A stretch of 26,755 nucleotides of DNA, from positions 1 to 26,755 of the IMG/VR virus record IMGVR_UViG_3300025769_013615; one strand, given 5' to 3'. Positions within the stretch are counted from its first letter, which is position 1; every line of letters begins with the position of its first letter. Position numbers and translations under genes: made by a program. Of this stretch, positions 1,641 through 24,120 are shown piece after piece. Under the pieces are notes generated by a model that was not told the DNA's origin, did no database searches, and saw only the letters and a program-made list of their open reading frames with translations. This DNA comes from a virus.

Positions 1641-3190
1641 TTGATGAACTGATGGCCGAGCCCATGCGCCGGCTTAACCGGATGATGCAAGACCAAGCCG
1701 AAGGCAACCGCGCTGGTTGGATCGCTGAGATTCTAAGCATCGCTGACAAGTGGAGGCCCGAAGGCTACCGCAGAGCGTGCAACAAGCTCCAAGACTACTA
1801 CAACGGCCAGCAGCAAGAAGGTTTGATGCAGCAGTTGAAAGCATCCTTTCCTGAAACATGGAAGATGCTACCAACCGACATGATCCTGCCTGTGATGCGT
1901 CGATGGATTGACCAACAGGCGACGGTCTACCTAACGCAACCAGCTCGCACGCTCATTGATGAAAATGGCGACGCAATCCAAGAGGGGCCGATTAGCCAAG
2001 CGTTTGAGAAGCTGCAAAATGACGCAGCCTATTGGGAAGTCTGGCAGCAGCTAGATCGCATGGTCCATTTGTACAACTGCTCATTGCTGATGTTTGGTTG
2101 GAACAGTTGGCGCAATCGACTTGAAGCGCATGTGGTCGCACCACAGTTGGTGCATATTGTGCCTGATCCTGATGACCCGTCAGACTTGAGCCGTGCATGG
2201 GCCGTGTTGGTTGAGCTTGCATCGGCCACGGGCGTTGATAGCGTAGAAGATCCTAGTGACCGTCGATTCCTGGCCTACTGGCGCAGCACCACAGAAGAAG
2301 GCCGCGACGAGTGGCAAGCCGTGGTAATCCATGAGAGCGGCTATATTGAACTAGATGGCCTTGATGATGCCATGGACTTCACAGCGCCGGTCAGAGATGA
2401 GAATGGCAAGACCGTTCTTCCCATGATCTGGGTCCAAAAGGAATCGCAACACGGCATTGTATACAGCCGGCCCAATACCGATTTAATTTCAAGCCAAGAC
2501 GCCATCAATGAGACTTGGGTAGATATTCACGCCAGAGCAAGAACGTCTGGTTATGGCTCATACGTTGCCACCAGCTTAGACACCGATCGTGCACGGGGAG
2601 CGCTCAACATTGCGCCGGGTGGTGTCACGATCCTAGAAGAAGGCGAGACGCTATCAACGCTGACGGCTGACAGTCGGCTGTCTGAACACGTCGACATCTT
2701 GCAAACCTATCTCTTGCAGCAAGCTCAGCGCTTGGGCTTGTCGCCTTCGAGCTGGTCGCCAAAGGATCGGCCCAACCTGTCAGGCGTAGCGCTCAAGGTT
2801 GAGAATCTAGAGCAGGAAACGCACAGAGCCCAGCAGATCAATCGCTATTCTAGGATTGAGACCGAAGACGCATTCATTATCGCCAGAGCCGTTCACAACA
2901 GTTACGCCGTGCCTAATGGCGCTGATATGTTGCCGTGGTCTCTGACCATGCATTGGCGACCAGGCCCAACCAGCTTGCCGATCGATGAAGAGGCACAGCG
3001 GCGCATCTTAGATCATGACGTATCCAAGAACTGGATCACATCGGCCCAAGCCATGAGCAGAGCGCTTGGAATCACCGAGCAAGAGGCCCAACAGAATCTC
3101 AAAGACAACACGTCACAGAATCGCCAACAGATCCAGCCCGCAGGCTTAGGCTTAGCAGAGGCCGCACTTGGGTTGGTGGGCGAAGAATAA
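1637..3190 (+). CDS. Portal protein
   Basis: A 517-residue protein directly after terL, with the size and composition of phage portal proteins, which form the dodecameric ring through which DNA enters and leaves the head. The middle part (about residues 230–330) is rich in beta-prone sequence ending in SQDAINETWVDIH, comparable to the wing-to-stem region of portals. The C-terminal part is helical with a Q-rich tail. It starts in an ATGA overlap with terL. I identify it from context, length and the general portal pattern rather than from one diagnostic motif. Confidence 0.9.
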   Translation: MIDELMAEPMRRLNRMMQDQAEGNRAGWIAEILSIADKWRPEGYRRACNKLQDYYNGQQQEGLMQQLKASFPETWKMLPTDMILPVMRRWIDQQATVYLTQPARTLIDENGDAIQEGPISQAFEKLQNDAAYWEVWQQLDRMVHLYNCSLLMFGWNSWRNRLEAHVVAPQLVHIVPDPDDPSDLSRAWAVLVELASATGVDSVEDPSDRRFLAYWRSTTEEGRDEWQAVVIHESGYIELDGLDDAMDFTAPVRDENGKTVLPMIWVQKESQHGIVYSRPNTDLISSQDAINETWVDIHARARTSGYGSYVATSLDTDRARGALNIAPGGVTILEEGETLSTLTADSRLSEHVDILQTYLLQQAQRLGLSPSSWSPKDRPNLSGVALKVENLEQETHRAQQINRYSRIETEDAFIIARAVHNSYAVPNGADMLPWSLTMHWRPGPTSLPIDEEAQRRILDHDVSKNWITSAQAMSRALGITEQEAQQNLKDNTSQNRQQIQPAGLGLAEAALGLVGEE

Positions 3191-3193
3191 AGC

Positions 3194-4072
3194 ATGGCCA
3201 TCAATCCTGACTCCATATCCAAACGGTTTGAATCGACGTTACGCAAGTCGGTTGGCCGGCTTGAGAAATACATGGGTCAGTTGGTGGCGCAGCTTGACAC
3301 TGAAGACGAGTTTCTAGTCCCTAACCAAGAGAATCTGGCACGGGCTACGCTGATGCGTCAGCAGTTGACCGATGAGCTGAACCGGCTGGGCTTTCAATCT
3401 GACGTGCGCAACCTATACAAAGACGTGGCCAACGTCCTAGCCCGTGAAGCTGGCGACAATGAACAAGAGCAGCTGATCGCCGAAACGGTGCTGGCTGGCT
3501 TTGCGTCTAACTTCACCAGGCACTTGGACAACTCATGGTTTACAATGACCGGGCAGATTCAAGACATCGTTGAGCAGGCAATCCTAACCAATGCGCCAAT
3601 CTTAGACTTGCTCTACGTCCTAGCCGGCCCAGAGCGTGCAAGCATACGCATTAGCGCTCCACTAGATGCGCAGTTTAGCCAATGGCTCAACTGGAGCGCA
3701 GCAGCTGTTGACACTGCATTGTCTGGCTTGCTGCGTAAGATTGAGATTGTGCAGGCCACAGAGGCAGGCGTTGAGTTTTACATTTACTCAGGCACCTTGA
3801 TCAAAACATCACGGCCCTTTTGCGACTTGATGAAGGGCGTTGTGGTTAGGCTTGAGGATTTGCGAGCCATTGAGAACGACCCAAGGTTTTCAAGTCTCAA
3901 GCTCCTTAGAGGCAAAGAAGGCAGACAACCACCGATTGTCACCACGCTTGGCGGTTGGCGTTGTCGTCACACGCTCAGAGCCACCAGCTTGGCAGAGGCC
4001 AAACGATCCAACCGGCGCATTTTCATGGAAGTTGGCGACGAGCTAAACGCAGAAGCGAGGGCGCTGCTATGA
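3194..4072 (+). CDS. Minor head protein (head morphogenesis type)
   Basis: A 292-residue protein after the portal. The N-terminal two thirds is helical. The C-terminal third has the pattern SGTLIKTSRPFCDLMKG, then VVRLEDLRAIENDP, then GGWRCRH, a series seen in phage minor head proteins (TRPFC … T.EEI … GG.NCRH) encoded between portal and scaffold. Such proteins sit inside the head and are thought to help portal assembly or DNA ejection. The start follows the portal stop by three bases. The stop overlaps the next start as ATGA. Confidence 0.78.
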   Translation: MAINPDSISKRFESTLRKSVGRLEKYMGQLVAQLDTEDEFLVPNQENLARATLMRQQLTDELNRLGFQSDVRNLYKDVANVLAREAGDNEQEQLIAETVLAGFASNFTRHLDNSWFTMTGQIQDIVEQAILTNAPILDLLYVLAGPERASIRISAPLDAQFSQWLNWSAAAVDTALSGLLRKIEIVQATEAGVEFYIYSGTLIKTSRPFCDLMKGVVVRLEDLRAIENDPRFSSLKLLRGKEGRQPPIVTTLGGWRCRHTLRATSLAEAKRSNRRIFMEVGDELNAEARALL

Positions 4073-18363: not shown

Positions 18364-18534
18364 ATAAAGAGCGCGAGCGTTTGTCCAAGAGTAGCCAACA
18401 CCTTGCAGCGCATTAATAACGGCCGGCTCTCCATTTTCAAAGCAGCTGCTCAGCGCAAACCGGTGATGTGACGGCAGGCGTTCAAGCAAATATTGCCGTG
18501 ATGCTTCTTTCATTGCCTGTTGTTCAGTCTTCAT
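18322..18534 (-). CDS. Hypothetical protein, 70 residues
   Basis: A small leftward gene at the end of the early operon. I chose ATG 18534, which lies inside the end of the PP-loop gene and has GGGGA about nine bases upstream; a longer in-frame version (start 18690) would be buried in that gene. The protein is helical with ASRQYLLERLPSHH and ends in QQQQKPKHKP. The GEPAVINALQGVGYSWTNA segment resembles a small helix-turn element. No family is recognised. It overlaps the converging rightward gene. Confidence 0.5.
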   Translation of the reverse strand: MKTEQQAMKEASRQYLLERLPSHHRFALSSCFENGEPAVINALQGVGYSWTNARALYLAYQQQQKPKHKP

Positions 18535-19393
18535 TGTTGCTGGTCCCCATATCGCAAAGGCCCCACATGCGGCAGCCGGGTTGGCCCATATCCAAAAGCT
18601 TGAACTGGCGGCCGCCTCGATCGGTTTGCGCCCACTCAACCACGTCATCAATATAAGTTGGCTCGCCTTCTTTTTTGGTCGCTGATTCACGGTGAAACAT
18701 TGAGCCGCCTATTTCTTTTTCTAACGCTCGAATCTCATCAATGCGCCAGGGGTCGTTATTAGCTACCGCAGCAATTTCGCTTTTTCGGCTATAGATGCAC
18801 GGGTAGCAGCCGACCCGGCTCGCTGGGTTTTCTTTGCGTAAATACAAAGAACAAGGGCGGATGTTGTGTTTTGTGTGAATAGCCACCACATCCTCAACAC
18901 TCCATTCAATGATTGGCCGCCAGGTGTCTGCTTTCATAGGGCCGCCACTGTCCCACATATCAAGAGCCGCACGGCTTCTAGACTCAGCAGCTCGGATGCC
19001 AACGCAGTTTATTGGCGACTCTTCAAAAGTTGCCATGTGTTGTTTGATTGGATCGGTCTTAAGAAGCCTAGTACAAAACCGAATTGTTCGATGTGGGAAA
19101 ATCTTATTGGCCCGCACAGCGTCAACAAATCCGCCGGGATACTTTGCGTTTTTGGCTCGGTGTATCGGTCCTATAACGCCTTCAAGGTAATCGAGATAAT
19201 CGTAAAGGTCGGGATGTTCCCAGCCCGTGTCAGCAAAGACCCAATAGCAACGATCAGCCAAGCCTTGATCAATCAGCCAAAGCGCCATTGCTGTTGAGTC
19301 TTTGCCGCCACTAACTGACACCAACAACGGCCGGTCTTCAATAATCTCTGACCAGTGCCGAGCACCTTCTGCAATGCGATCTAAAACGCTCAT
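18524..19393 (-). CDS. PP-loop ATPase, PAPS reductase/DndC-like
   Basis: A 289-residue protein. I chose ATG 19393: it overlaps the dnaB-like stop as ATGA and has GGAG nine bases upstream; ATG 19408 in the same frame is an alternative. The PP-loop is VSVSGGKDST (motif at residues 28–34), with FADTGWEHPD, RFCTRLLKTDP and VGIRAAESRSRA as further family motifs, and Cys residues in RPCSLYL and VGCYPCIYSRKSE. Proteins like this adenylylate a substrate and often bind an iron–sulphur cluster; phage members are annotated PAPS reductase, and relatives include DndC. The substrate cannot be read here. No dnd neighbours are present. Confidence 0.87.
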   Translation of the reverse strand: MSVLDRIAEGARHWSEIIEDRPLLVSVSGGKDSTAMALWLIDQGLADRCYWVFADTGWEHPDLYDYLDYLEGVIGPIHRAKNAKYPGGFVDAVRANKIFPHRTIRFCTRLLKTDPIKQHMATFEESPINCVGIRAAESRSRAALDMWDSGGPMKADTWRPIIEWSVEDVVAIHTKHNIRPCSLYLRKENPASRVGCYPCIYSRKSEIAAVANNDPWRIDEIRALEKEIGGSMFHRESATKKEGEPTYIDDVVEWAQTDRGGRQFKLLDMGQPGCRMWGLCDMGTSNNED

Positions 19394-20670
19394 TGTCTCG
19401 CTCTCCATCCAAAACGGTGATTTGCTAAGTCTGGCACAATATCAATCGGCCCCAGCTCGCCCCAACGATTCTTTGCAACCAGCAGTTGAGCCGCTGCATC
19501 AGCATCATCATGATCAGGCCGATAGAGCAACAGGATGGCATCTGCATCTTGTTCAATAGCGCCCGAATCTCGCAAATGGTGTGCCGCTGGCTTTAGTGAT
19601 GCCTTGGCTGCTCGGTTGAGTTGAGACGCAGCAAGCACAACGCAATTGAGCCGTTGGCTTAGCGCTTTGCATTCTGACGACACAGCGCCAACTTCTAGCG
19701 TGCGAGTCTCAAACCGTTTGCCCTTGGGCGCGCTAAATGACGTTAAATAGTCAACCACCACGCAACCCAAATGGCCTGCTCTGCTCAGTTTGTGTGCGTC
19801 AGAACAAACATCATCAATCGAGCGACTAGGCTTGATCAACAGGCGCTCAAGGATCTGAGCTTGTGTATTGGCCGCCATAAGCACTTGATCCATTGCGCCG
19901 GCCTGTTGGTTGCGCAACGGGTTGATGAAGTCTCTGCCTTCCAAGCAGCACAGCGCTTTAAGCGCCAGCTCGGCTTCTGTCATCTCACAGGTGGCAAACA
20001 AAACCAGCATTTCAGGGTTTTTGCGCAGCAAATGCAAGGCAACCTGTAAAGTTATTGTCGTTTTACCATCACCGGGCCTGCCTCCAATCACATACATGCG
20101 GCCAGGCGTTAGCGGCATTCTGTGATCAAGTGGCGTGCCCGTCGTAAAGCCGGGCTTGAAGGCTTCTTCAAGGTTTGTGGTCAAGGTGTAAAACGCCTGC
20201 TGGAGCTTTACACTTTTGTTGCTCTCCACATCCTCAAGAGCGCTGCGCAGTGACTCTAGGGCAGTCTTTGAACTGTCGCCCCAACCTTCGGCAGCGTCTG
20301 CCACTTGGCGTGCGATGTGGCCGATCCTGCGCAGCCTGGAACACTCAAGCAAAGCCTCTGCCGCTTGATCATACCCGGCCAAGATACGATCAAGCTTATA
20401 TTGGCCAAAGCTTTCTACATACTCAGCGCCCCCAGCCACTTCCAGATCACCACTCTGGCGCAGCCTATCAACGATCACCAGCGTTGGTGCATCTCCGCCA
20501 CCATCGCGAATCTCTTCTAGGATCGCCGACCAAATGGTTTTGTGTTTCTCATTGTGAAAATCACTAGCCTTGATCGTTTCAATCTTCTCAAGCTCAAGTT
20601 TAGTGGCAAACATCGCTTGCGCTAAAAGCGTTAACTCTGCTTGCCTTGCTGTTGCCTCTGCTGGGTTCAT
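19390..20670 (-). CDS. dnaB: Replicative DNA helicase, DnaB-like
   Basis: A 426-residue hexameric helicase that unwinds the phage fork. The N-terminal domain (about 1–150) has the DnaB-type helical bundle, with FHNEKHKTIWSAILEE and VVDRLRQSGDLEVAGGAEYV. The RecA-like domain has Walker A GGRPGDGKTT at residues 196–205, Walker B GCVVVDYL (D307), and SQLNRAAKASLKPAAHHLRD followed by SGAIEQDADAILLLYR. All core motifs are present. The start is preceded by GGGGGCAGAG and overlaps the ruvC stop as ATGA; the end overlaps the PP-loop gene. Confidence 0.95.
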   Translation of the reverse strand: MNPAEATARQAELTLLAQAMFATKLELEKIETIKASDFHNEKHKTIWSAILEEIRDGGGDAPTLVIVDRLRQSGDLEVAGGAEYVESFGQYKLDRILAGYDQAAEALLECSRLRRIGHIARQVADAAEGWGDSSKTALESLRSALEDVESNKSVKLQQAFYTLTTNLEEAFKPGFTTGTPLDHRMPLTPGRMYVIGGRPGDGKTTITLQVALHLLRKNPEMLVLFATCEMTEAELALKALCCLEGRDFINPLRNQQAGAMDQVLMAANTQAQILERLLIKPSRSIDDVCSDAHKLSRAGHLGCVVVDYLTSFSAPKGKRFETRTLEVGAVSSECKALSQRLNCVVLAASQLNRAAKASLKPAAHHLRDSGAIEQDADAILLLYRPDHDDADAAAQLLVAKNRWGELGPIDIVPDLANHRFGWRARQ

Positions 20671-21215
20671 CTCTGCCCCCTGTCACGCACGTTTAACATC
20701 ATGCGCACAAGATCATGATCTTGCGCCGTCACAGCTGCGCCCAAAGCATCGGCCGCATGGTTGCGCTGAGTCTTTGTTATCGGCGCGAGCTGCTGCTCTG
20801 AATCATCGACCAAAAAGGCCAAAGCATTTTCCACAGATTGTTTGCTTGCGCTCGCATCATTGCAAATGGCCTTCTTTATCTCTTGCGGCCTAAACTGAAG
20901 AATCGGCGTTGCCCACACTTCGCCCAAAGCAGACAAGCAGCCCCAGGCCATGGCAACCGATCGGTCAGCATTAACAAAGCTTGTCCAGCTTTGGGCCTCT
21001 GCCGCAATCACAATGGGTTCATGTTGCCGTTGCAACTGCTGCAACTGCTTTGTGATGTGCGCAACTCTTCTGGCGTTATCATCGCAGCGCTTGAGCTTGC
21101 GATCCGGCTTAGTTCTAATCACTCCAGCGCCCAAGCACCTTGGGCGGTCCCCACTCAAATCGAGTAGGGACCAACCAAGGCTTGAGAAACCGGGATCAAT
21201 ACCCAGAATCACCAT
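20667..21215 (-). CDS. ruvC: RuvC-like Holliday junction resolvase
   Basis: A 182-residue endonuclease of the RuvC family that cuts four-way junctions made during replication and recombination. Catalytic acidic residues are seen in GIDPG (D7), AAEAQS (E73) and HAADALGAA (H153, D156). Length matches RuvC. It starts inside the end of the single-strand-binding candidate gene and ends in an ATGA overlap with dnaB, so it is part of the same operon. In phages it trims branched DNA before packaging. Confidence 0.92.
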   Translation of the reverse strand: MVILGIDPGFSSLGWSLLDLSGDRPRCLGAGVIRTKPDRKLKRCDDNARRVAHITKQLQQLQRQHEPIVIAAEAQSWTSFVNADRSVAMAWGCLSALGEVWATPILQFRPQEIKKAICNDASASKQSVENALAFLVDDSEQQLAPITKTQRNHAADALGAAVTAQDHDLVRMMLNVRDRGQR

Positions 21216-21685
21216 TGGGGAGCATCTCCAGCCGGGGCCGCTTGCTGTTGCGGTTGTTGCTGGAAGGCTTCCACACGTTTGATGCGGCTGCTTTGCTTCT
21301 GTTCACCGGCGTTGGTTTGATAGCTCCGAACGTCAGTAGTCAGCCTAAACGTCTGATTGCGAGCATCGCCGATCATGCGCGTCATGGTCATCAGCATTTG
21401 CTCTGGGTTGTCACCATCAGGCATTTGATTATAACCACAGGCGTCGTACATCATGCGAGCAAGCCAACCAAACTTCGCAGGATCATGCGGCCAATCTAGC
21501 CACAAGTAGCGGTTGCTGTAATCACCATCAATAATCACAAACGTCAGCGATGTGCGCGCTCTGCCGTCTGCGTCGTAACTCAGCTCACACTCTTTGAGCT
21601 GCGCAGCATACCGGCCAGCAGGCACAGGCGTTGAAGTGCCACCACTACCGCCCCAGGAATCCCAAACATCTTGCTTTGTCGTCAT
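21209..21685 (-). CDS. Single-strand DNA-binding candidate (DUF669-like)
   Basis: A 158-residue protein. I chose ATG 21685, one base after the Sak4 stop, because AAGGTG lies about nine bases upstream; the longer frame to 21943 is a shadow inside the Sak4 gene. The N-terminus DVWDSWGGSGGTSTPVPAGR leads into a beta barrel-like region (YAAQLKECELSYDADG, TSLTFVIIDGDYSNRYLW), in the manner of DUF669 phage proteins found beside Sak-type recombinases. The tail is glutamine-rich (FQQQPQQQ) and ends GDAPQW, recalling the flexible tail with terminal aromatic of single-strand-binding proteins. Confidence 0.7.
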   Translation of the reverse strand: MTTKQDVWDSWGGSGGTSTPVPAGRYAAQLKECELSYDADGRARTSLTFVIIDGDYSNRYLWLDWPHDPAKFGWLARMMYDACGYNQMPDGDNPEQMLMTMTRMIGDARNQTFRLTTDVRSYQTNAGEQKQSSRIKRVEAFQQQPQQQAAPAGDAPQW

Positions 21686-21686
21686 C

Positions 21687-22469
21687 TTATGCACCTTCTT
21701 TCTTAATGCGGGCCAATCCCGCGTATAAACTGTCCAAATCTGCTTGATTGCGGCTTGGCCAAATGTGCCAGCCTGCATCACGATCGCCGAACAACTCTTT
21801 GGCTGTGCGACACTTTGCCGTCTGTTGATTGCTGGGCCTGAAATCAAGGTAACGCGTGGACGGCTCAAGGTTAAGCCGCTCGGCCTCATGCTCTGCAACA
21901 ATGCGCAAGCGTGCCACGCAGTCAAACTGCCCAATCGCATCAACCGTGGATTTTTCTGGGATCGACGGCCGCCAATGACCGGTCAAGCCTTCAATCTCTT
22001 TGGCCTCTTGCTGAAACGTCGCAACCGCTGGCACGCCAGACCCAGCAGCGTCACGCAGAGCACGGATCGAGCGGGCCAACATGGCTTTACGCGTCCCATA
22101 GTGCTGCAGTTGGGGCGTATCAAGCAAGCCGGTTGCCTCGCGTAGTATCAACTCGCTAAGCTCTGACATTGTATCCACAGCAACCAAACCGCTTGGGTTG
22201 TCGATGGTGATTTGATTCTTTATCTCCTCCAATACCGCTTTGCCGTCACCATTGCTGGTGGCGCTCAAAAGTACAGTTTGAGATAACCCAACCTCGCGAG
22301 CTGCTGAATACAAGCCGCGCTCTGTGTCGATCAGCAGCGCTGACCGTTGGTGATTCTCAGCAGCTTTGGCCAAACCAGCCAAGAGCGTGCTTTTGCCTGT
22401 TCCAGGCGCTCCATAAATCATGAGCGTCATTGCCGATGATGGCGCTGCGCTCAAATCAATCCGTTCCAT
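21687..22469 (-). CDS. RecA-fold ATPase, Sak4-like annealing protein
   Basis: A 260-residue protein with Walker A GAPGTGKSTLL at residues 20–30, an ALLIDTERG segment and Walker B GLVAVDT (D99). Size, gene order and motifs match Sak4-type (RecA-like) single-strand annealing ATPases in phages, which sit beside a DUF669 protein and a Cas4-like nuclease. AGGAGGCA is seen upstream of the ATG. Probable role is recombination during replication. The alternative is a general AAA ATPase; the neighbours favour Sak4. Confidence 0.85.
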   Translation of the reverse strand: MERIDLSAAPSSAMTLMIYGAPGTGKSTLLAGLAKAAENHQRSALLIDTERGLYSAAREVGLSQTVLLSATSNGDGKAVLEEIKNQITIDNPSGLVAVDTMSELSELILREATGLLDTPQLQHYGTRKAMLARSIRALRDAAGSGVPAVATFQQEAKEIEGLTGHWRPSIPEKSTVDAIGQFDCVARLRIVAEHEAERLNLEPSTRYLDFRPSNQQTAKCRTAKELFGDRDAGWHIWPSRNQADLDSLYAGLARIKKEGA

Positions 22470-22484: not shown

Positions 22485-23516
22485 CTAGAACGTCAGTTGA
22501 CCATGCCGCACTAGGGCGGCGTACAAATGCACAGCGGGGTTGGTGCGGTATTTATCCGCAAGCGCTGGCAGGTTTTTCGTTTTACTTGTCGTCTTGTATT
22601 CGATGATCGCAAGTTGACCATTGGTCAGCCTGACCACCATATCTGGAATCCCGTGCAGCCACTTCTTTGACCCGGGCATTTTCATGACTCGGCGGCGCTC
22701 TGACTCGACAATCTCAACCACGTCACGCATTGCCAAATCAAACATGCTGCGTGCGCGCTCGGCCATTTCTTCCAAGCCGTCATTCTCAACCAGCTCGTTA
22801 AATGCCTCTGAGTCAATCTGGCTGTTTTCGTGCATCTCAATCGCTCGGATGCCTAGTTCAATGCGCAGGTCATGGCTTGTTAGACTCTGATCTTTAGCGA
22901 GCATCTCAAGCAGATGATGTGTGAGACTGCCACGGATACGCGCAACAGCCTTTTTGCCTTCAGATACCTGACGTTTGCGCCAGCGATACTCAATCGCCCA
23001 AAGCCGTTGGCATTTGGCAAAAGATCGCATCTCGCTTGGGCTGATCACAAAGCCGCGCCGGTCTCGCTTTATTTCCTTTGATGTGCGCCCGTATTTGATG
23101 CGGATCGTTGAAGGTTCTTTGGCCTCTTCAACGTTGAGCCAGCCATCAATATCAGACGCCATCGGGTCTGACTCGCAATAGATGCGCCAATGGCACATCT
23201 CGCAGGCGAAACCGTTTTTGGGAGGGAGCAAACTGCTCTTGGCAATGGCCTTTTGATAGTGCTGAGCATCATAGAGCGCCGAGTTGGTCAGCGTATCATC
23301 TGCCCACATATCGTAGCCAAAAACCCATGCCTCTTGATCGCGCTGCTGCAAGTGCTCCAAATACGTCTGATCAACGTCTTGGCCTTGATCGTCGCAAGTC
23401 TTCACATACAGCGCAGCTGTTGTGTCAGCTCGCAAGTTGGTTGAGACTTTGCCGCTCTTGAGCACTTGAGGTTTGCTGGGCGGCGTAGGCCGTCCCAAAA
23501 TATAACGAATCAACAT
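22485..23516 (-). CDS. Cas4-like PD-(D/E)XK nuclease, halves in permuted order
   Basis: A 343-residue protein with a good ribosome site (AAGAGGCAACA before ATG). Residues 1 to about 117 look like the normal C-terminal half of a phage Cas4-like nuclease: IRYILGRPTPPSKPQVLKSG, then DTTAALYV, TYLEHLQQRD and the triad C105, C108, C114. A linker follows (about 118–155). Residues about 156–343 look like the normal N-terminal half: FVISPSEMRSFAKC (C169), GSLTHHLLE (H200), HGIPDMVV (D292), IIEYKT (E306, K308) and AVHLYAAL, where the protein ends. All four cluster cysteines and catalytic residues are kept, so it is probably active. Family membership is firm; the permutation is inferred. Confidence 0.88.
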   Translation of the reverse strand: MLIRYILGRPTPPSKPQVLKSGKVSTNLRADTTAALYVKTCDDQGQDVDQTYLEHLQQRDQEAWVFGYDMWADDTLTNSALYDAQHYQKAIAKSSLLPPKNGFACEMCHWRIYCESDPMASDIDGWLNVEEAKEPSTIRIKYGRTSKEIKRDRRGFVISPSEMRSFAKCQRLWAIEYRWRKRQVSEGKKAVARIRGSLTHHLLEMLAKDQSLTSHDLRIELGIRAIEMHENSQIDSEAFNELVENDGLEEMAERARSMFDLAMRDVVEIVESERRRVMKMPGSKKWLHGIPDMVVRLTNGQLAIIEYKTTSKTKNLPALADKYRTNPAVHLYAALVRHGQLTF

Positions 23517-23530
23517 TGTTGCCTCTTTTC

Positions 23531-24076
23531 CTAGTAGCCATAGCCTTGATGGCGTTTGCCGTGTTGCGCTTCTCTGCGTCGCAAAACGTGTTTTGGGTCT
23601 GGTGTTTTGTGCTCTGACTCAACGTCATGCAGCCAGTAGATGTAGAGATTGCGCATATCTATAGACAGCTGATCGTTGGCTTCGCGATAACTCAAAATCA
23701 CTTGTCTGCGCTGCTCGGCTGGCGAAGATGACTCAAAGCGCCAAATCAATGCGCGCTCTTGCTCTTCAGCCTGTTCCTTTTCCAGCGCAGCTCGCTTTGT
23801 CTCCCTAAGCTCAATCAACTCTTTGCGGCGTTTATCGAATAACTCGTTCCCATAGTCTTCGGCCGCTTCTAAGTGAATACCCGTGCAGTTTTTCAAGCGA
23901 TCTTCAACATAGCTTGCAGCGACTCGCCCGCTGTATTGGCCTAAGATTATTGAATCAGCACCAGCAAAATCCACACACTCACGCACCATGTGTTCAATCT
24001 CACGGCGTGCGCGATTATAAGCCCACTGCATGGCAGCGACTTTGCGCCAATCAATCTCAGGTTCTTTGTTTGCCAT
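23531..24076 (-). CDS. Helical, highly charged protein of unknown function
   Basis: A 181-residue protein in the early operon. I chose ATG 24076 because AAAGAGGC sits six to ten bases upstream; the longer TTG start at 24109 has no ribosome site. The sequence is mainly helical, with an E/K/R/A-rich coiled-coil centre (RRKELIELRETKRAALEKEQ) and a basic end (HGKRHQGYGY). No enzyme motif is seen. It ends 14 bases before the nuclease gene, whose product it may support. I do not recognise a family. Confidence 0.68.
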   Translation of the reverse strand: MANKEPEIDWRKVAAMQWAYNRARREIEHMVRECVDFAGADSIILGQYSGRVAASYVEDRLKNCTGIHLEAAEDYGNELFDKRRKELIELRETKRAALEKEQAEEQERALIWRFESSSPAEQRRQVILSYREANDQLSIDMRNLYIYWLHDVESEHKTPDPKHVLRRREAQHGKRHQGYGY

Positions 24077-24120
24077 GTTTGCCTCTTTATCTTCCAGCTC
24101 GCGTTGCAAGCCAGTCTAAA

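Follow-up and report, generated by a model that had tools for sequence, protein, structure and literature searches.

Sequence evidence for a circularly permuted Cas4-like PD-(D/E)XK nuclease encoded next to a Sak4-like gene in metagenomic viral contigs

The open reading frame at positions 22485–23516 of a metagenomic virus record raises the question of whether a Cas4-like PD-(D/E)XK nuclease can be encoded with the two parts of its chain in swapped order. Here, we analyzed this gene in its window, which spans the whole of a 26,755-base IMG/VR virus record. The original prediction had interpreted the product as a circularly permuted member of the family, and its placement of the motifs proved correct (LKSG at residues 19–22, DTT at 31–33, the cysteines C105/C108/C114, SPSEM at 159–163, C169, H200, D292, E306-x-K308 and Y332). 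The gene lies on the minus strand, starts with an ATG at 23516 and encodes 343 amino acids plus a stop. It is set 15 and 14 bases off its two neighbours, and a purine-rich stretch resembling a ribosome-binding site precedes the start codon. The parts of the protein and the surrounding genes are given in Table 1.

Table 1 Features of the permuted nuclease gene and of its neighbours in the window
Feature	Position	Strand	Basis
Residues 1–118, matching the C-terminal third of canonical proteins (strand following the QhXXY helix, LKSG...DTT, Cys triad)	23163..23516	-	hhalign, HMM, alignment
Linker, residues 119–152, old C-terminus to old N-terminus	23061..23162	-	Equal length in 6/6 full-length permuted proteins
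Residues 153–343, matching the N-terminal two thirds of canonical proteins (lone Cys, motif I His, Asp, ExK, Y helix)	22488..23060	-	hhalign, PF12705
C105-x2-C108-x5-C114, predicted Fe-S ligands	23175..23204	-	Invariant in permuted and canonical alignment
C169, predicted to be the fourth Fe-S ligand (N-terminal Cys of canonical proteins)	23010..23012	-	Sequence alignment
H200, motif I histidine	22917..22919	-	Sequence alignment
D292 ... E306-x-K308, catalytic motifs II and III	22593..22643	-	Sequence alignment
Degenerate QhXXY, A328-V-H-L-Y332, Gln to Ala (codon 22533–22535)	22521..22535	-	Motif comparison
RecA-like ATPase, Sak4-like (AAA_24), next gene downstream of the nuclease	21687..22469	-	PF13479, E 7.2e-14
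Conserved small protein encoded after Sak4, possibly binding ssDNA	21209..21685	-	Position and recurrence
RuvC-like resolvase	20667..21215	-	PF02075, E 3.2e-15
DnaB-like helicase	19390..20670	-	PF03796, E 1.6e-42

Results

Two parts of one nuclease in swapped order

Canonical phage exonucleases of this family, with about 21% identity to the permuted protein, run from a lone cysteine through the core to a cysteine triad, whereas the protein studied here runs from triad through linker and lone cysteine to core. As the linear order of one cysteine before and three after the core was not found (triad at 105–114, lone cysteine at 169, core after it), the protein was filed as a permuted variant and not as an ordinary pfam12705 member. 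In its natural order, PF12705 covers residues 158–339 only (model positions 2–172), with 62 bits against a gathering cut-off of 22. When the protein is concatenated with itself, the check that had been proposed along with the permutation, PF12705 extends over 158–457 (model 2–246 of 247) and phrog_1218 over 156–470 (model 8–342 of 364), each as one continuous alignment across the end–start junction. A single rotation raised the PHROG 1218 score from 58.1 to 65.1 bits (55.4 when the N part was shuffled), and rotating a related protein from another contig, L006, took PF12705 from 74.1 bits to 79.7, with the whole model covered.

Since these gains from the Pfam and PHROG models were modest, a sharper canonical HMM was trained on canonical relatives from phages and viral contigs. 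Three permuted proteins, the window protein (P0001) first, scored 26.4, 26.2 and 28.9 bits in natural order and 59.7, 60.0 and 62.3 bits when the same sequences were rotated; with the N part shuffled 300 times, the means were 26.5, 24.9 and 29.3 bits and the maxima 30.0, 31.1 and 33.2. On its own, the N part (1–152) reached 25–29 bits in all three against at most 6 bits after shuffling, and the motif set of this reading frame is thus far beyond chance. The region of residues 1–118 corresponds to canonical HMM positions 186–305, and a scan of cut points placed the top scores at 130–152, inside the linker, in 3/3 proteins.

Profile–profile comparison with hhalign gave two crossing alignments in natural order (155–332 to canonical 13–176, E 3.5e-10, and 9–126 to 194–316, E 7.3e-9) and, after rotation at the linker, a single continuous one of 294 columns (E 1.2e-18). 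There is hardly a seam at the join, where the terminal HGQLTF and the initial MLIRYILGRPTPP overlie the canonical loop and strand GVIWDYIR.KPP. In tblastn, the rotated L006 protein produced single matches spanning the junction to named phages (E 9e-5 and 2e-4). In the searches made, the N part alone gave no match to a nuclease family of Pfam or PHROG. Residues 1–126 do not belong to an unrelated family, as they align to the same Cas4-like family as the rest of the chain.

With rotation, the permuted protein thus acquires near full-length homology (E 1.2e-18) to the pfam12705/PHROG 1218 exonucleases of the Pseudomonas phages Lebethron and PMBT14, of ctfzr933 and of Yersinia phage vB_YenM_P744. 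It shares with these Cas4-like exonucleases the cysteine and H/D/E/K/Y motifs and the slot directly upstream of Sak4. CRISPR Cas4 (SSO0001, Pcal_0546) likewise has the RecB motifs and the four-cysteine Fe-S staple, but in canonical order. The nuclease domains of AddB, AdnA, Dna2 and EXO5 are also of canonical order, and AddB, AdnA and Dna2 are large multidomain enzymes, unlike the permuted protein.

A reading of the protein as a CRISPR-associated Cas4 was rejected, with a TIGR00372 score of 20.8 bits lying far below the NCBIfam cut-off of 65. No cas genes were recognised among the neighbours of the nuclease; those recognised were Sak4-like, RuvC and DnaB.

Recurrence, selection and phylogeny

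The same order in related phages, which the original prediction had suggested looking for, was found in five further full-length genes (L002, L006, L034, L035 and L036). Four partial copies accompany them (L037, L003, L038 and L039), and the nine copies, on contigs from eight IMG/VR datasets, all show or fit the permuted order. L002 and L006, with 71% and 55% identity to the window protein, agree with it in order and in the Sak4 neighbour, while L034–L036 (full length) and L037–L039 (partial) were obtained by a search of further datasets with L006. Of the partial copies, L003, L038 and L039 hold only the 3' end of the gene, stopping at the same point, and the L003 contig starts within the gene. 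All six full-length genes have a common breakpoint, linker length and Sak4 neighbour. Each begins just before (L/F)IRY, with start codons that differ among the genes (ATG, GTG, TTG). The window protein had no match in the cultured phages of the collection searched, a pattern scan of genome contigs gave no permuted protein, and the L006 protein had no match in the plasmids searched.

The permuted genes are under purifying selection, with dN/dS of 0.07–0.17 in both halves where dS was measurable; several comparisons were saturated at synonymous sites and give no ratio. In a tree of 32 sequences, the six permuted proteins form one clade (100/100 support), whose long branch is placed within the canonical phage proteins, and the permuted order represents one change in 200/200 bootstrap trees. 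We infer that the permuted form is derived from the canonical one, since the usual order is shared by Cas4, AddB, Dna2 and every canonical phage relative. Taken together, the rotated alignment and the recurrence in other contigs bear out the permutation in its main point, and at the level of sequence the product is confirmed as a circularly permuted member of the Cas4-like PD-(D/E)XK nuclease family, with a function predicted by homology and a permutation that is fixed.

As to its origin, a canonical gene was probably duplicated in tandem and then lost the outer halves, which is a plausible route. A search for leftover nuclease pieces in all six frames of the window and its relatives turned up no convincing match (E of at least 0.3 throughout). 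The lack of duplicate remnants in the flanks would suit gene fission, in which the C-part and N-part became separate genes in swapped order and later fused, and the end product of both routes is identical. We nevertheless hold fission and fusion to be unlikely: tandem duplication is the simpler route, the start of the linker still aligns to the canonical tail, and a split intermediate was not found.

Catalytic residues

The claim that all catalytic residues are kept stands for H, D, E, K, Y and the four cysteines and does not stand for the glutamine of the QhXXY motif. The permuted proteins conserve C105, C108, C114, C169, H200, D292, E306, K308 and Y332; among these residues, the RecB motifs His, Asp and (D/E)-x-K (H200, D292, E306-x-K308) are invariant and align to the canonical ones, and the four cysteines, with their C-x2-C-x5-C spacing, agree with an iron staple. 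In place of QhXXY, the window protein reads AVHLY, with Ala328 at the position of the glutamine. This residue is Ala in P0001 and P0002, Gly in L006 and Gln in the sister lineage L034–L039 (QTFLY, QTYLY or QVHLY). By a simple pattern match, it is present in 26 of 28 canonical proteins (e.g. QLLLY, QVILY), and in the other two a nearby Q was missed by the pattern.

Because the lost glutamine belongs to a motif whose residues are critical for activity in Cas4 (PMC4176176), activity could be changed in the lineage of the window. The substitutions in P0001, P0002 and L006 might even point to a catalytically weakened or inactive, DNA-binding relative. This appears improbable, however, as H200, D292, E306, K308 and Y332 are invariant, the sister lineage keeps the glutamine and the genes are under purifying selection.

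Fold and iron–sulfur cluster

In Cas4, one N-terminal and three C-terminal cysteines bind one cluster (PMC4176176, PMC3466216); the ends of the chain are therefore close together, and joining them by a linker is structurally sensible. In the permuted protein, the old C-terminus (after the triad) is connected to the old N-terminus (before the lone cysteine) by a linker of about 34 residues, and the new break lies in the loop between the QhXXY-bearing helix and the next beta strand. The chain would then fold back into the standard fold and, by homology, its four cysteines would bind one Fe-S cluster, the staple now closing an internal loop.

AlphaFold2 gave a poor model of the permuted protein (mean pLDDT 57.4, pTM 0.38) with an alignment of few sequences. 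This alignment held three permuted sequences and canonical C-part fragments; L034–L036 were not included, and canonical N-part fragments, which MAFFT misplaced, were left out. VIA-align matches of this low-confidence model had Z of 6–7, below the level that can be trusted, with Dna2 and AddAB matched weakly (Z about 6) by its C part. A canonical control model (pLDDT 74.9) matches AdnA, AddB, ACE1, EXO5 and SSO0001, and in it the permutation break falls between helix 169–180 and strand 188–195.

The low confidence of the permuted model (pLDDT 57.4), together with the decameric state of Cas4 SSO0001 (PMC4176176), leaves some room for chains that do not fold back on themselves, either forming a domain-swapped dimer or oligomer or carrying the cysteine triad part as a separate module. 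Against this stand the linker, which is long enough, the position of both old termini at one Fe-S cluster in Cas4 structures and the co-conservation of all motifs, and we judge such an arrangement to be improbable.

Genomic neighbourhood and proposed role

The nuclease belongs to a minus-strand replication cluster together with the Sak4-like ATPase, the small protein after it, RuvC, DnaB and a PAPS-reductase-like protein, while terminase, portal-like and other structural genes occupy the plus strand of the window. Among the permuted contigs, no more than about 20 bases separate the nuclease from the Sak4 gene that follows it. In Lebethron, vB_YenM_P744 and a Desulfofustis phage, the gene immediately upstream of the Sak4-annotated one encodes a canonical Cas4-like exonuclease, and phages with a canonical nuclease such as ctfzr933, Yakult and Fowlmouth have an AAA or RecA-like gene in the Sak4 position. 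The permuted gene thus occupies the slot of the canonical nuclease, before Sak4.

Several other genes of the region were noted. The small protein after Sak4 had no Pfam match. Upstream of the nuclease, a 192-aa protein (23531–24109, minus strand) had no Pfam match either and is unrelated to the nuclease profile. Directly downstream of DnaB lies a gene for a PAPS-reductase-like protein (18524–19408, minus strand, PF01507 E 1.1e-21); in L004, a DNA cytosine methyltransferase-like ORF (2817–3764), recognised by eye from its translation, holds this slot after DnaB.

Mainly because permuted and canonical genes share their position beside Sak4, we propose a role in recombination. Based on homology and gene position, the protein is most likely an Fe-S exonuclease that would degrade DNA ends and thereby supply ssDNA to the neighbouring Sak4 recombinase.

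Discussion

Altogether, we consider it highly probable, at roughly 85%, that the gene encodes a natural permutant of the canonical Cas4-like nuclease, presumably refolded around one Fe-S cluster and feeding Sak4. An assembly artefact, in which the two halves were wrongly joined in the contig, might be suspected for a metagenomic record whose gene is in no cultured phage of the collection, but is next to impossible given that order, breakpoint and linker length are common to six diverged full-length genes, on independent contigs from different datasets, with intact coding constraint.

No permuted Cas4 or PD-(D/E)XK nuclease was described in the literature searched, with the main superfamily review (Steczkiewicz 2012) outside that search and an earlier description possible, and the string “permut” does not occur in “Phylogenomics of Cas4 family nucleases” (PMC5704561). 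Tentatively, this could be the first described natural circular permutant among iron-staple nucleases, kept since one old event because the working of the enzyme changed, an idea that we regard as possible but doubtful. If true, the new termini, placed next to the active-site helix, could for example make contact with Sak4 or control how DNA leaves the enzyme, and the Fe-S staple would now serve to close an internal loop.

The idea behind the Fe-S “staple” is that it keeps the ends of the nuclease domain from coming apart. As the permutant would join these ends covalently, it offers a ready-made test of this idea, and its stability should depend less on the cluster. Part of the family can escape annotation by linear profiles, since the N part alone matched none of its Pfam or PHROG models. 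More generally, the permuted gene would represent a new connectivity for a nuclease found in phage recombination modules and suggests that an iron–sulfur enzyme family tolerates natural circular permutation.
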